Assembly (NCBI RefSeq): GCF_040371545.1
Contig: NZ_AP029048.1
Coordinates: forward strand, 1,240,001-1,304,000
DNA length: 64,000 bases
Reading direction: 5' to 3'
Origin: Synechococcus sp. M16CYN
GTDB taxonomy: Bacteria; Cyanobacteriota; Cyanobacteriia; PCC-6307; Cyanobiaceae
The notes beneath the pieces were generated by a model. That model was not told the DNA's origin and did not search any database. It saw only the letters and a program-made list of their open reading frames with translations. A program made the position numbers and the translations under genes. This document shows positions 8,695-32,704 of the stretch, piece by piece (the stretch's first letter is position 1; every line of letters begins with the position of its first letter).

Positions 8695-8916
8695 ATGTCA
8701 AGCTCCTTTTTCAAAAAACGCCTTTCTCCGATCAAGCCTGGCGATCCCATCGACTATAAGGATGTGGATTTACTCAAAAAGTTCATTACGGAGAGAGGCA
8801 AGATTCTTCCTCGTCGTTTGACTGGTTTAACCGCCAAGCAACAAAGTGATCTCACTAACGCTGTCAAACGCGCTCGAATTGTTGCGTTACTGCCTTTTGT
8901 TAATCCTGAAGGCTGA
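8695..8916 (+). CDS. rpsR: 30S ribosomal protein S18
   Basis: A 73-residue S18, normal for cyanobacteria. The diagnostic core is [20 protein letters not shown] (about residues 19-38) followed by [20 protein letters not shown], which binds 16S rRNA on the platform of the small subunit. It begins [16 protein letters not shown]. It is the second gene of the rpmG-rpsR pair and is followed by a 327 bp gap before the RNase II gene. Confidence 0.97.
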
Positions 8917-9243
8917 TCTCAGCTTACAATGACCAACGGCTTCGTGAAGGTGCAATAATTTTTATTGCTTGAAGAACTACAACACAAATAAAGGTTTCAG
9001 AAAATGAAGATTATTCAGCCTTTAAGTATAAAAACAGCGCCTTTATATACTGTGTCAAAGGCATCCTTCGCTTATTAAACCTTCAAGGGCTAAGTCCAGC
9101 ATAGAAAGAACAACCTGATTAGTTGGGCCAACATCTCAGTAGCGAAACGACAACACGATGTTGAAATCATTACCTAGGCGAAGTCCCTGTTTCCGAGCGC
9201 CGACTTAGACACTCTGTAACGATGATCAATTCGAAGCAGGATC
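8917..9243. other. Spacer between rpsR and the RNase II gene
   Basis: I see no gene or strong terminator hairpin. An AT-rich tract around 8955-9060 follows rpsR, and the last 180 bp are of mixed composition. The upstream end of the RNase II gene may extend slightly into this spacer if its GTG start is wrong. Confidence 0.5.
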
Positions 9244-10563
9244 GTGGATCCTTATAAGCCCTGTACTTTATCCGGCAGTGTTTGGTCGACATCATTCGGT
9301 GATGTACTCGAAACCGAGGCAAAGCGATTGATCTCCACGGCGGAGGACAGCCTTCCTGGAGATGACAATCGCCTTGATCTTTGCGCACTCCCGACTTATA
9401 CCCTGGACGATGCCGGCACGTGTGAAATAGACGACGCCCTATCGCTCGAGATCCAAGGTTGCGAAGCTTGGATCTGGATTCATATCGCCGATCCAGCACG
9501 CCTGATTTTAAGAGATAGCCCCTTGGATCAAGAGGCGCGACGTCGGGCTACCAGCCTGTATCTTGCCGATGGTGTTTTACCAATGTTTCCACTAGCCCTT
9601 GCGGCTGGTCCGTTGAGTCTTCGTGTGGGTCAGCAATCGGCCGCCTTAAGCGTTGCCATTCATTTAGATGACGACGGAGCCATTGCTAAAAGCTATATTA
9701 CAAGAAGCTGGGTTCGCCCTCGTTATGGACTCACTTATGCAGATGGCGATGATCTGATCGAATTCGCACCTCCCGGTGACGAAAGCTTGGCTGCATTATC
9801 AGAGCTCCTTCAAAAGCGAAGCCAATGGCGTCGTCAACAAGGAGCCCTGATGTTCGATCGCACAGAAGGTCGATTTCGTCGCAGTGATGGGGAGCTGTTA
9901 CTTCAGTTAGTTGAACCAACACCAGCACGACTAATGGTGAGCGAAGCTATGCTGTTAATGGGAACTGTTGTAGCCGAATTTGGACGTCGCGAGAATTTGG
10001 TTCTCCCTTTTCGTAGTCAACCACCAGCTGAGCTTCCTTCTCAAACTGAGCTTGATCAATTACCAAAAGGTCCCGCTCGCGATACTGCAATTAAACTTTG
10101 CCTCAGCCGTAGCGTGCAGAGAACCCAACCAATGGCTCACTTCAGCCTTGGACTTTCGGCCTATGTGCAAGCTACGTCACCCATTCGCCGCTACTTAGAC
10201 TTAACTGCTCATTACCAGATCATTGCCTGTCTTGAAGGCCACCCACCGACTTCAGAAAATGATCTGAGTGAATTGATTGATGATCTTGACTATCTGCTTC
10301 GCCAATCGATTCAGATCAGCCGTGAAGATCAGCACCACTGGCAACAGGTCTGGTTTGCACAACGTCAGGGAGAACATTGGAAAGCCGAATTTTTACGCTG
10401 GCTTCGTCCACATAAACGACTGGCTCTCGTTTATGTGGACGATTTGGCAATGGATCTTGTGGGCCAAGTGCCTCACGCTAAACCGAAACCTGGTGATCAT
10501 TTGGTACTTAGCGTCAACCTAGCGGAGCCTGAACGCAATGAGCTGCAGCTTCAACTCAATTGA
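9244..10563 (+). CDS. rnb: RNase II-family exoribonuclease (short form)
   Basis: A 439-residue RNB-domain protein. The catalytic signature is intact: TLDDAGTCEIDDALSLE with D55, E61, D63 and D64 in the positions of the metal-binding acids of RNase II, and TSPIRRYLDLTAH around 311-323, the RNA-binding arginine motif. It should degrade RNA 3' to 5' hydrolytically. It is shorter than E. coli RNase II (about 640 residues) because the N-terminal cold-shock domains are missing and no clear S1 domain is seen. The start is GTG at 9244. It ends 13 bp inside the 3' end of the convergent FAD oxidoreductase gene. A second, longer RNB-family protein at 30356 lacks these catalytic motifs, so this may be the working enzyme. 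Confidence 0.88.
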   Translation: MDPYKPCTLSGSVWSTSFGDVLETEAKRLISTAEDSLPGDDNRLDLCALPTYTLDDAGTCEIDDALSLEIQGCEAWIWIHIADPARLILRDSPLDQEARRRATSLYLADGVLPMFPLALAAGPLSLRVGQQSAALSVAIHLDDDGAIAKSYITRSWVRPRYGLTYADGDDLIEFAPPGDESLAALSELLQKRSQWRRQQGALMFDRTEGRFRRSDGELLLQLVEPTPARLMVSEAMLLMGTVVAEFGRRENLVLPFRSQPPAELPSQTELDQLPKGPARDTAIKLCLSRSVQRTQPMAHFSLGLSAYVQATSPIRRYLDLTAHYQIIACLEGHPPTSENDLSELIDDLDYLLRQSIQISREDQHHWQQVWFAQRQGEHWKAEFLRWLRPHKRLALVYVDDLAMDLVGQVPHAKPKPGDHLVLSVNLAEPERNELQLQLN

Positions 10564-29229: not shown

Positions 29230-29601
29230 ATGAGCAACTTGAATTTAAGCTGGTGTTGCGTTCAACAATGCGGGGCGTGTTGCAGGCTTTGTCCGGAGGA
29301 ACGCAGTGAAGCCTTGGCAGCTCTAAGCGAGGAACAACGGGTCACCTATCTCAGCATGGTGGGTGATGACGGCTGGTGTATCCACTACGACAGCGGCGGA
29401 CGCCACTGCAGGATCTACTCAGAACGTCCAGATTTTTGTCGTGTTAGTCAATTGGGGGATTTATTCGGTATCCTATCCGATAGCCTGGAGCAGTTCGCGG
29501 TCACCTGCTGCGATCAACAGATCCGCAGCACCTATGGCGGACGTAGTAAGGTAATGCGCAGGGTCAACCGCGTGCGACGAAACCGGAGGCGGGCGAGATG
29601 A
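29230..29601 (+). CDS. YkgJ-type cysteine-cluster protein
   Basis: A 123-residue protein with the YkgJ zinc/iron-chelating cysteine cluster at the N-terminus: WCCVQQCGACCRLCP, cysteines at 9, 10, 14, 17, 18 and 21, with further cysteines later (WCIHY, HCRIY, FCRVS and VTCCDQQ). The C-terminus is strongly basic (about 108-123). The family is thought to bind metal; its function is unknown. The stop overlaps the start of the first UPF0016 gene by 4 bp, placing it in an operon with the putative manganese transporter genes. Confidence 0.8.
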   Translation: MSNLNLSWCCVQQCGACCRLCPEERSEALAALSEEQRVTYLSMVGDDGWCIHYDSGGRHCRIYSERPDFCRVSQLGDLFGILSDSLEQFAVTCCDQQIRSTYGGRSKVMRRVNRVRRNRRRAR

Positions 29602-29936
29602 CCGACCAAAATGGTACCGCAACCGAGCGCCCCGGATTTATCGCTGTTCTGTTTAGTACATTCATAACGGTGTTTGTTGCTGAGTTCGGCGATAAGACTC
29701 AGCTCGCTACACTTCTTTTATCAGCACAGTCGGGTTCACCCGGACTTGTATTTCTCGGGGCGGCTTTTGCCCTGATTTCTTCCAGTCTTGTGGGGGTTTT
29801 GATAGGGCGATGGCTGGAGAAAGCGTTTCCGCCAGAACGATTAGAGCTGATGGCTGGACTACTTATGGTTTGCCTCGGTCTGTGGTTGGGATTGCAAGCA
29901 AGCCGTTCGCTTCTTGCGATCAGAACGCACACTTAA
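29598..29936 (+). CDS. Half-size UPF0016/GDT1 cation transporter, subunit 1
   Basis: A 112-residue membrane protein holding one copy of the UPF0016 signature: FVAEFGDKTQLATLLLS, with E29, G31, D32 and K33 in the ExGDK(T/S) motif that forms half of the ion pathway. Hydrophobic segments lie at about 14-30, 46-66 and 82-104. Full-length family members (GDT1, PAM71, Mnx) carry two such motifs in one chain and move Mn2+ or Ca2+; here the second half is the next gene. It overlaps the YkgJ gene by 4 bp and ends directly before the second gene, so co-expression is expected. Confidence 0.85.
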   Translation: MTDQNGTATERPGFIAVLFSTFITVFVAEFGDKTQLATLLLSAQSGSPGLVFLGAAFALISSSLVGVLIGRWLEKAFPPERLELMAGLLMVCLGLWLGLQASRSLLAIRTHT

Positions 29937-30257
29937 ATGATGGATTTTGCTCTTCTGATTTCCACCTTCACCACTGTGTTCCTTGCAGAGTTGGGCGATA
30001 AGACACAATTGGCCACGGTGGCGATTAGCGGCACGTCCAACCATCCTCTTGCTGTATTTCTCGGTTCTGCTTCGGCCCTTGTGCTGGCAAGCTTTCTTGG
30101 TGCTCTCGCCGGCGGTTCAGTGGCTGCCATGATCCCTACTAACATGCTCCAACTGATTGCATCTGTTGGGTTTTTAGTGATTGGCTCTCGACTTCTATGG
30201 CCGTTGCTTGGTAAAAAACCATCTGAGCCCAACGAAAGCGGTTCTTCTAACTCCTAA
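29937..30257 (+). CDS. Half-size UPF0016/GDT1 cation transporter, subunit 2
   Basis: A 106-residue membrane protein with its own UPF0016 motif, VFLAELGDKTQLATVAI (E18, G20, D21, K22). Its ATG follows the stop of the preceding half-gene with no spacer. The two motifs together would complete a transporter, so I infer a heteromer. Split UPF0016 pairs in cyanobacteria have, to my recollection, been described as a heteromeric manganese exporter. Manganese efflux protects cells while supplying the oxygen-evolving complex. A C-terminal hydrophilic tail (about 94-106) distinguishes it from the first. Confidence 0.85.
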   Translation: MMDFALLISTFTTVFLAELGDKTQLATVAISGTSNHPLAVFLGSASALVLASFLGALAGGSVAAMIPTNMLQLIASVGFLVIGSRLLWPLLGKKPSEPNESGSSNS

Positions 30258-30355: not shown

Positions 30356-32704
30356 ATGAAATTTACGGTCGCCGATCTGCTCGACCAGTTGTCCACTGAT
30401 GTCCCAGTTGAGATAGCTGTTCTAACCAAGGTCCTCAAACTGACAAACAAGATCGAAAAACAGTCTTTGGATCTAGCTCTCAATGCTCTATCTAAGTTGG
30501 GGATTGTTTCACAAGATGAAAGCGGCGGTGTTTTGCAATGTCTTGATCATGGATTAATTGATGCGCGACTTCGTTGCAGTAGTAAAGGGTTTTGTTTTGC
30601 TATTCGCAATGATGGTGGTGAAGACATTTACATCCGCGATCACCAACTCAATCACGCCTGGAATGGAGATCGTGCTTTCGTTCGCATTACTCGCGAAGGA
30701 GGACGTCGACGGTCTCCAGAGGGAAGCGTGCAATGCATCCTCGAACGTTCTACAACGTCCTTACTTGCTCAGGTCGAACGTCAAAACGATCAACTAATCG
30801 CTGCTCCCCTGGATGACCGAATGCTGACTACCATTCGATTGCCCGATGAAGCAGCTGAATATCTTTCAGCAGAGCAACCCACAACTGTGGTGGAAGTCCG
30901 AGTTAGTAGTTACCCAATTGCTCAAAATGCGGCCAAAGGATTTGTGGTTCGCCCTCTCCCCCTAAATGGTGGCCCAACAGCAGATCGTGATCTCTTGCTC
31001 ACAAAGGTCGGCTTACATAATCGTCCGGCACCACCAAGAGGATTGGGGAAAGCGCCTATAACAAAGGGTCGGATCGATCTCACTGACCAGCCAGCCTTAC
31101 TGCTTGAAAGCTGGATGGATTCCAATGCTCCAGGCCTTCCGGCAGTTCACGTGGAAGCCCGTGATGGGGGTTGTCGCCTATGGGTCCACTCCCCTGCAGT
31201 GGCTGAGCGCATCGGTGGAATCAACAGCCTTGATCTTTGGCTGAAAGAGCGCATGGAAGCGCTTTGCCTAGGTGAAACCTGGCAACCTCTTTTACAGCCA
31301 TCACTCAATAAGGTCACGCGTTTCACAACAACAAAGGTTTCCGAAGCAGTCTCTGTTCGAATGGATGTCTCGTCAGAGGGTGAGCTCACTGACTGGGAAT
31401 TCATGCTTACAAGTGTGAAACCTGTAGCGACAATTGGTTCTGAACAGTTGAAAGCATTAGACGAACGTAAACCAAAGACGAGGACCATCCCGACGGCCCT
31501 TAAGGCAATCAAGGGTCAGATTAGTCAACTGGAAACCCTTCGCTTTTGTGCAGGCTGTCTACGTGCTCATGAACATATTCAGGGTCTGGTTGAACTTGAT
31601 TTACGGCCTCCTTGTTTAGAAGCTCTAGGTGATCTCCGATGGGCCGATCCCAGCGGACTGCGACACCGGTGGATTGATGCGCCTAATGCTATGGATCCGC
31701 ATTCCCTGCTTCAAACGTTTATTCGTGCGGCGGATCGAGCATGGGAATTCCATCGGGCATCGTTGCAACTTCCTGGTATTACCACGCAAGCAGGAGATCT
31801 GGACCCTTCAGTGCTTGCCGATGTAGCTAAGAGTGCTTTCGCTCTTGATTTACCGCTAGAACTAGATGAGGAAGGCGGTAGCCCATCAGCTCAAGAGTTG
31901 ATCAGTGTGTTTTCTGCATCAACCCATCGTCGGGTGCTTGAACAACAATTGAGTCATGCATTACCGACTATGGATTTTGTGGCTGTTATGGGGGTCAACG
32001 ATCAGGTGAAATACCGAAAAGATGCCGCCGACGATACTTTATTCAGCTCCGGCAGCAAGTCGGTTGAGAAAGTTAAACCTTCAGCACTGGCTCCCTGGTG
32101 CTGCGCCACTATGACCTATGCCCATGTGGTGAATCAACAAGTACTGGTGTTCTTGCTACAAGAGGGGAAAGATCGACCCACAGTCCGCCAAAAAAAGCGT
32201 TTGATCCTTGGCCGAAAAAACTGTGTAGCCGACCTCAGTTGGGGATTGTTTACTGGGAGCCAAAATGACAAGCTTCGATCTCTAGTGAGCGATCGCCTAG
32301 TTCAAAGGATGAATAACAGGCGCCGGCAGGTTTTAGAACTAGAAAAGGATCTATTGGCTATGGTTCAAGCCCGTGCTGCCCAGCCGTTGGTTGGGCAGCA
32401 AGCTGAAGGTCGTATTAGCGGAGTTCAGAGCTACGGGTTTTTCGTTGAAATTGGCGAAAGCCGTTTTGAGGGTTTGGTTCACGTCAGTTCTCTTAATGAC
32501 GACTGGTACGAATATCGGTCTCGCCAGAATCGCCTGGTTGGCCGTAAAAACAAGCGCGTCTATCAACTTGGCGACAGTGTTCAAGTCCGAGTGCTCAAGG
32601 TTGATGTTTTACGCAATCAGATCGATCTTGAAGTGAATTCTTTTCTACAAATAGAACACGACACCGAGCAAGTTGACGCAGCGCCGCTTCTACCGGTCCT
32701 TTGA
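30356..32704 (+). CDS. RNase R/RNase II-like protein with degenerate RNB domain
   Basis: A 782-residue protein with RNase R architecture: an N-terminal winged-helix-like region (1-65), cold-shock domains (about 70-210; FCFAIRNDGGEDIYIRDHQL), an RNB-like domain (about 235-660) and a C-terminal S1 domain (about 680-762; GRISGVQSYGFFVEIG). The two hallmarks of the active site are absent: where the D-x5-D-x-D-D cluster should precede the GVHIADV-like strand, the sequence reads LPAVHVEARDGGCRLWVHSP, and no SPIRRY-type motif is found (instead WCCATMTYAHVVNQQ). It therefore probably binds RNA without cutting it. ubiX starts 12 bp downstream, and the next gene overlaps that one. Confidence 0.78.
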   Translation: MKFTVADLLDQLSTDVPVEIAVLTKVLKLTNKIEKQSLDLALNALSKLGIVSQDESGGVLQCLDHGLIDARLRCSSKGFCFAIRNDGGEDIYIRDHQLNHAWNGDRAFVRITREGGRRRSPEGSVQCILERSTTSLLAQVERQNDQLIAAPLDDRMLTTIRLPDEAAEYLSAEQPTTVVEVRVSSYPIAQNAAKGFVVRPLPLNGGPTADRDLLLTKVGLHNRPAPPRGLGKAPITKGRIDLTDQPALLLESWMDSNAPGLPAVHVEARDGGCRLWVHSPAVAERIGGINSLDLWLKERMEALCLGETWQPLLQPSLNKVTRFTTTKVSEAVSVRMDVSSEGELTDWEFMLTSVKPVATIGSEQLKALDERKPKTRTIPTALKAIKGQISQLETLRFCAGCLRAHEHIQGLVELDLRPPCLEALGDLRWADPSGLRHRWIDAPNAMDPHSLLQTFIRAADRAWEFHRASLQLPGITTQAGDLDPSVLADVAKSAFALDLPLELDEEGGSPSAQELISVFSASTHRRVLEQQLSHALPTMDFVAVMGVNDQVKYRKDAADDTLFSSGSKSVEKVKPSALAPWCCATMTYAHVVNQQVLVFLLQEGKDRPTVRQKKRLILGRKNCVADLSWGLFTGSQNDKLRSLVSDRLVQRMNNRRRQVLELEKDLLAMVQARAAQPLVGQQAEGRISGVQSYGFFVEIGESRFEGLVHVSSLNDDWYEYRSRQNRLVGRKNKRVYQLGDSVQVRVLKVDVLRNQIDLEVNSFLQIEHDTEQVDAAPLLPVL

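Follow-up and report, generated by a model that had tools for sequence, protein, structure and literature searches.

A degenerate RNase R homologue of the Zam family and an N-terminally trimmed RNase II in Synechococcus sp. M16CYN, two proteins with probably separate histories

The stretch analysed here, called the window, comprises 64,000 nucleotides of Synechococcus sp. M16CYN (contig NZ_AP029048.1, positions 1,240,001 to 1,304,000 of the forward strand). It carries a gene for a 782-residue protein, zam, and a gene for a 439-residue protein, rnb, and these are the only two RNB genes of the genome, which also has RNase E and PNPase. Their features are collected in Table 1. A distance of roughly 15-25 kb between rnb and zam on the same strand is seen in many marine genomes including the window, and the two genes are far apart in WH7803 and SynAce01. 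Directly upstream of zam, at 29598-30257, lie two adjacent half-size genes of the GDT1 family (112 and 106 aa) with one GDT1 repeat each. As for the organism, the assembly consists of a contig of 1,940,073 bases plus another 17,326 bases. For CregCyn, a symbiont of the dinoflagellate Citharistes regius, a 1.94 Mb chromosome, a plasmid of about 17 kb, a reduced proteome and a position as sister to Synechococcus clade IV are described (PMC11150560). Judged by these sizes and its position, the window genome is very probably that of CregCyn, a genome-reduced symbiotic relative of marine Synechococcus; the guess of marine Synechococcus made with the original prediction fits.

Table 1. Features of the two RNB-family genes in the window
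Feature	Position	Strand	Basis
rpsR, 73 aa, upstream neighbour of rnb, used as anchor	8695..8916	+	ORF, translation, matches to relatives
rpsR-rnb gap with decayed remnant of the Rnb N-terminus	8917..9243	+	tblastn; seven in-frame stops
Rnb, trimmed RNase II of 439 aa with both catalytic signatures	9244..10563	+	ORF; PF00773 214.8 bits; open frame 445 aa
Acid cluster of Rnb, D55-x5-E61-x-D63-D64	9406..9435	+	sequence, alignment
SPIRRY motif of Rnb	10177..10194	+	sequence, alignment
Zam, RNase R-like pseudonuclease, 782 aa	30356..32704	+	ORF, Pfam, alignment with other Zam, fold model
OB_RNB / CSD1 of Zam, residues 71-126	30566..30733	+	PF08206, E 1e-15
C74 and C80 codons of Zam (CSSKGFC)	30575..30595	+	position; role from PMC9145284
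Degenerate RNB region of Zam, residues 239-538	31070..31969	+	PF00773 match
Replaced acid cluster of Zam, E251...N257-A-P259-G-L-P262	31106..31141	+	alignment with Rnb, RNase R
Replaced SPIRRY motif of Zam, residues 583-588, CATMTY	32102..32119	+	alignment
S1 domain of Zam, residues 679-760	32390..32635	+	PF00575, E 9.5e-14

The long protein has been predicted to keep cold-shock and S1 domains around a nuclease core that lost both of its signatures, and both parts of this prediction hold. Pfam finds OB_RNB, CSD2, RNB and S1 in that order, each above its cut-off, and the RNB match is weak (85.2 bits against a cut-off of 29.3, profile positions 1-283 of 326). Alignment of the protein to E. coli RNase R and to active Rnb puts E251, N257, P259 and P262 where the catalytic acids should be and C583-A-T-M-T-Y588 in place of SPIRRY, so the four acids and the SP-x-RRY motif by which an active RNase R is recognized are both missing. 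Position 251 is variable: both of the nearest relatives have R there, and the others E, K, C, S, N, Q, T, V or A. Against the NCBIfam model of RNase R (TIGR02063) the protein scores 168 bits, below the cut-off of 597.85. In an alignment of 23 Zam proteins (A1) the mean fraction of the commonest residue is 0.60 for the CSD, 0.73 for S1 and 0.44 for the RNB-like part, thus conservation in Zam resides in the CSD and S1 and not in the RNB-like part. Structural modelling, suggested with the original prediction, was applied to the long protein. The AlphaFold2 model, built on a 37-row alignment, has a pLDDT of 87.9 and a pTM of 0.87 and displays the RNase R fold; its best structural matches are RNase R structures (VIA-align Z 33.6-35.1, 407-607 residues aligned), and the yeast pseudonuclease Ssd1 (7am1) also matches with Z 29.1 over 602 residues.

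The 782-residue protein is Zam, the degenerate RNase R homologue published in 2022, and is therefore a new member of an already described family. According to Thomas et al. (2022, PMC9145284), Zam proteins form a cyanobacterial clade within the RNB family and combine two cold-shock domains and an S1 domain with a degenerate active site. The authors relate Zam to the redox response and report growth, pigment and drug phenotypes for the zam deletion. Two cysteines in CSD1, C73 and C79 in PCC 7002, are reported there as redox-active and required for function in that strain; their counterparts in the window protein are C74 and C80. Of 86 Zam sequences, 79 carry C-SSKG-[FY]-C. The pair is described as invariant, and another residue stands at one of the two positions in the Zam L098 and L099 (a sponge-symbiont genus, g4), L082 and L083 (genus g6) and L250, where the motif takes the forms SSSKGFC, CSSKGYS or CSSKGFG. 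Sorting by BLASTP separated 41 Zam from 59 Rnb reading frames without overlap, and profile A1 matches a Zam in 28 of 30 other genomes of the class. A published statement has it that Zam occurs in every cyanobacterial genome searched. An apparent exception is G276 (4.2 Mb, one contig, 99% complete), in which there is a single RNB match, the Rnb, and no Zam with profile A1. The published activities of Zam do not all point one way. According to the authors' statement, the purified Zam of PCC 7002 has neither nuclease nor RNA-binding activity, with aggregation as a caveat (PMC9145284). Anabaena Alr1240, which Thomas et al. call Zam, binds and boosts RNase E (PMC9145284, PMC10989914), and exonuclease activity is reported for it in a review (PMC10989914); our literature search found no primary paper on Alr1240. 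In PCC 7002, Rnb and PNPase are essential and zam is not (PMC9145284). Rnb is likewise essential in PCC 6803 and not in PCC 7942 (PMC9145284, PMC10989914), where both RNB genes could be inactivated (PMC10989914).

Is the loss of the active site recent, or specific to this symbiont? Aligning homologues had been proposed as the check for an ancient loss, and the loss does reach across the family: among 41 Zam of the Cyanobiaceae, the window's own included, none keeps SPIRRY or the acid cluster, while all 59 Rnb (56 distinct) keep both signatures, D-x5-[DE]-x-DD and SP-x-RR-[YF]. As the site is absent from all family Zam and shows graded erosion outside the family, a recent or symbiont-specific loss is ruled out. 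Around the former site the family Zam have a common replacement, approximately W-x4-[AS]P-x-LPA, followed further along by PW-x6-Y, so the degenerate region looks constrained and not merely drifting. For two close relatives dN/dS over the RNB-like part is 0.137. Of 45 Zam from outside the family, 14 retain SPxRRY and several retain DD. One of these outside proteins, L104 of genome G222, combines SPLRRY and the CSD1 cysteines with an acid cluster D-x5-D-x-D-D that is displaced by three residues, and by these motifs may still be an active nuclease. Another such Zam, L101, reaches 603 bits with the RNase R model, above its cut-off. Such graded erosion would agree with descent from an RNase R and repeated decay of its site, as has been argued for relatives of Ssd1 in fungi (PMC8097288). 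It fits poorly with Thomas et al. (PMC9145284), who state that the canonical site is absent from every Zam; with 14 of 45 outside proteins keeping SPxRRY and one a near-canonical cluster, it is not certain that every Zam is inactive. Some Zam are also short: L266-L269 (G255, G243, G225, G267) and those of G228 and G257 have 693-735 aa, with about 80-90 central RNB-like positions unmatched by the profile, as if a part had been deleted. These Zam counts leave out L265, L270 and L271, which gave no single extractable ORF, and G216 and G276, which gave no Zam match.

The second gene tells a different kind of loss. The 439-residue protein, predicted as an RNB protein with both motifs, indeed has them in an RNB domain that scores 214.8 bits (Table 1); one of the four acids is glutamate (E61), as in other Rnb. 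By its motifs it is the only RNB-family protein of the window genome with a catalytic site. It had also been predicted to lack the flanking RNA-binding domains. This is borne out on the N-terminal side, where the region with a CSD-like barrel, winged helix and HTH is missing from the 439-residue frame. At the other end the last 65 or so residues align, by sequence, with the S1-like end of full-length relatives; Pfam reports no domain in these residues, and even in the relatives the match to RNase_II_C_S1 is sub-threshold. A single-sequence fold of the protein reached a pLDDT of 33. In L233, a full-length cyanobacterial Rnb from outside the family, the N-terminal part is built from a double HTH, a winged helix and a CSD-like barrel, not from two classical cold-shock domains. 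In full-length Rnb of the family it is too diverged for Pfam, with one sub-threshold winged-helix match, in L204.

The trimming has left a trace at the locus. The gene starts with GTG, 327 bases after rpsR, and the interval contains seven in-frame stops; its last 48 or so codons, from about 9100, align by tblastn in the gene's frame with the residues that precede the RNB core of relatives. A search for the missing ~240 residues found nothing elsewhere in the window genome with E up to 10, and both control relatives were positive. A frameshift or a split gene is thus ruled out, since the remnant is in frame with stops and no other copy turned up at E up to 10. The same query found nothing in two other trimmed genomes. 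Because the 439-residue protein occupies the same position as the full-length gene and has 73% identity in the core, it is, as judged from the sequence, a descendant of it. The trimming is not a trait of the genus. The comparison covered 33 other genomes of the genus, two with only Zam and one with neither; in the 30 with an Rnb match the open frame has 678-773 aa, against 445 aa in the window.

How often, then, has Rnb been trimmed? Among 200 genomes of the family, a trimmed frame of 398-502 aa occurs in 60, including the window's own, and a full-length frame (at least 595 aa) in 134. The latter number is obtained by subtraction, with G041, G082 and G184 having fragments only and G042, G144 and G192 no clear Rnb. 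For 92 distinct Rnb, selected with a pattern in which the catalytic motifs are obligatory, the acid cluster lies either within residues 22-121 (40 proteins) or within 283-394 (52 proteins), and nowhere in between. The 38 named genomes comprise 18 trimmed, 12 full and 8 with no complete Rnb. The trimmed ones are 16 Prochlorococcus, Ca. Synechococcus spongiarum SP3 and one Prochlorococcaceae MAG; the full ones include Synechococcus WH7803 and RCC307, Cyanobium and Aphanocapsa feldmannii 277cV. On a tree of Zam and the Rnb core for 48 genomes, the distribution of the trait requires three changes, each of them forced by starred branches. The tree search was short, and flags were raised for long branches and for uneven composition; two genomes dropped out of its input, G111 because the pattern used matched no Zam ORF in it and AG-363-M21 because its Rnb was missed. 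Constraining CregCyn to group with Prochlorococcus is rejected (p-AU 8.8e-8), and so is grouping the sponge symbionts with Prochlorococcus (p-AU 1.0e-4). Hence the N-terminal part was lost three times independently, in Prochlorococcus, in Ca. Synechococcus spongiarum and in CregCyn. From rpsR to the rnb open frame there are 309 bases in the window and at most 121 in the trimmed genomes where the distance is measurable, which suggests that the event in CregCyn is the youngest. Genome size alone does not explain the trimming, because G143 and G045 (1.8-1.9 Mb) keep a full Rnb while some trimmed sponge-symbiont genomes are as large as 2.5 Mb (G089).

We consider it probable that the two proteins have separate histories: Zam as a catalytically dead, redox-tuned regulator whose site was lost first, and Rnb as an enzyme pared down separately by genome reduction. 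The order is given by the family comparison, since none of the 41 family Zam keeps the site while 134 of 200 genomes have a full-length Rnb; Rnb would have been stripped later. Having the RNase R fold without metal ligands, Zam should not cut RNA. Through CSD1, with C74 and C80, and S1 it would probably bind RNA, RNase E or both and tune RNA turnover to the redox state, a step that rests on published Zam work; against RNA binding by Zam stands the purified PCC 7002 protein, which was negative with the caveat stated above (PMC9145284). As for Rnb, the usual cyanobacterial RNase II of about 680 residues would have lost its N-terminal ~240 residues by decay in the window lineage, leaving what should be a sufficient exonuclease. 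There is a precedent for a bare core, in that the RNB domain of RNase R alone rescues an rnr mutant of P. syringae (PMC10579198). For Prochlorococcus and the sponge symbiont Ca. Synechococcus spongiarum, where Rnb was trimmed independently, a by-product of genome reduction would likewise be the simplest explanation.

Could the two proteins instead work as a pair? The original prediction proposed a division of labour between an RNA-binding pseudoenzyme and a stripped catalytic partner. The pseudoenzyme, already published (PMC9145284), and the stripped enzyme are both real, but their joint origin as a pair is not supported: a dead Zam stands beside a full-length Rnb in most genomes of the family, and Rnb was stripped three times. 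Still, Zam may have come to supply RNA capture for the naked Rnb core in trimmed genomes, directly or via RNase E, with the function split between two chains. The effect of Alr1240 on RNase E in Anabaena fits this idea, and 59 of the 60 trimmed genomes have two RNB-family matches, that is, Zam is kept beside the trimmed Rnb. However, Zam is kept nearly everywhere, also beside a full-length Rnb, so this co-retention is uninformative; and the degenerate site of the family Zam is alike whether Rnb is trimmed or full. We therefore regard such complementation as unlikely. Its boldest form is that the RNB system was split in all three separately reduced picocyanobacterial lineages, the naked RNase II core cutting while a dead Zam, gated by a disulfide in CSD1, captures or targets RNA in trans, perhaps via RNase E. 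This looks a little more doubtful still; if true, it would be a two-chain exoribonuclease linked to photosynthesis.

Two other explanations concern the proteins one at a time. Zam might still degrade RNA with the metal held by other acids of the fold. The RNase R fold is retained in the model, and twelve positions in its RNB-like region are D or E to 85% or more when the 37 aligned rows are compared. Acidic residues at other places of the fold had been named as the observation that would overturn the prediction; at the level of the alignment such columns exist, but none lies in the catalytic loop, residues 251-262, only E284 is invariant, and SPIRRY is lost as well. A hidden activity of this kind is very improbable. 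The short Rnb, in turn, might be a decaying pseudogene, or its truncation an assembly error. Within the genus it is found only in the window genome, a single genome, and the upstream remnant does show real decay. Yet 439 codons remain open with both motifs, the same trimmed end state occurs in 59 other genomes, and seven separate in-frame stops upstream disfavour a sequencing slip. The trimmed core differs from G001 by a dN of 0.19, and for the full-length genes of G001 and G023 the value is 0.23; dS between the window and its relatives is saturated or undefined, so only dN is informative. Lying within the range of full-length relatives, this dN gives no sign of relaxed selection on the trimmed core. 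Decay or misassembly is hardly to be expected here, and two separate histories remain the explanation we prefer.

What does this mean for the RNB family in cyanobacteria? A supposed new pseudoenzyme is reassigned to the known Zam family, and the part worth following is the repeated loss of the N-terminal part from an exoribonuclease that is essential in some cyanobacteria. Our literature searches found no report of repeated N-terminal trimming of Rnb, and it looks unreported. The trimmed genomes amount to natural deletion mutants, one of them with a visible remnant, and in these lineages one can directly test what the N-terminal domains of RNase II do and whether there is a dependence on Zam.

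The nearest known system is that of Synechocystis PCC 6803 and Synechococcus PCC 7002 (PMC9145284). The window Zam has in common with the Zam of these strains two cold-shock/OB domains, a degenerate RNB, S1 and the CSD1 cysteine pair, and it is likewise encoded by a second RNB gene beside an active Rnb. It differs in that the site of the family Zam is fully replaced and SPIRRY is gone, while many Zam outside the family keep SPxRRY, and in that its partner Rnb is trimmed. RNase R itself (5xgu of E. coli, 8cdu of the B. subtilis type, 7dcy of M. genitalium) has the same fold and domain order, but Zam is without the catalytic acids and SPIRRY and falls short of the RNase R model. Yeast Ssd1 (7am1) is, like Zam, a dead protein of the RNase II family, with conserved cold-shock domains and the same fold without an active site, and its family shares the repeated erosion of the site (PMC8097288). 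Unlike Zam, it is eukaryotic, belongs to the Dis3L2 branch and descended from Dis3L2 (PMC8934651, PMC8097288); in Ssd1, RNA binding has shifted to an outer surface, with the channel blocked (PMC8934651). For the short protein, full-length cyanobacterial RNase II (Synechocystis Sll1290; PMC3293843) has the same RNB signatures, and in many family genomes seen its gene stands behind rpsR as in the window, whereas the window Rnb is without the N-terminal ~240 residues. The best solved sequence match of the 439-residue Rnb is the RNase II-family protein 2r7d of Deinococcus radiodurans (E 3e-41), which is also short, with 469 residues, and whose RNB core starts about 40 residues later than that of the window Rnb.
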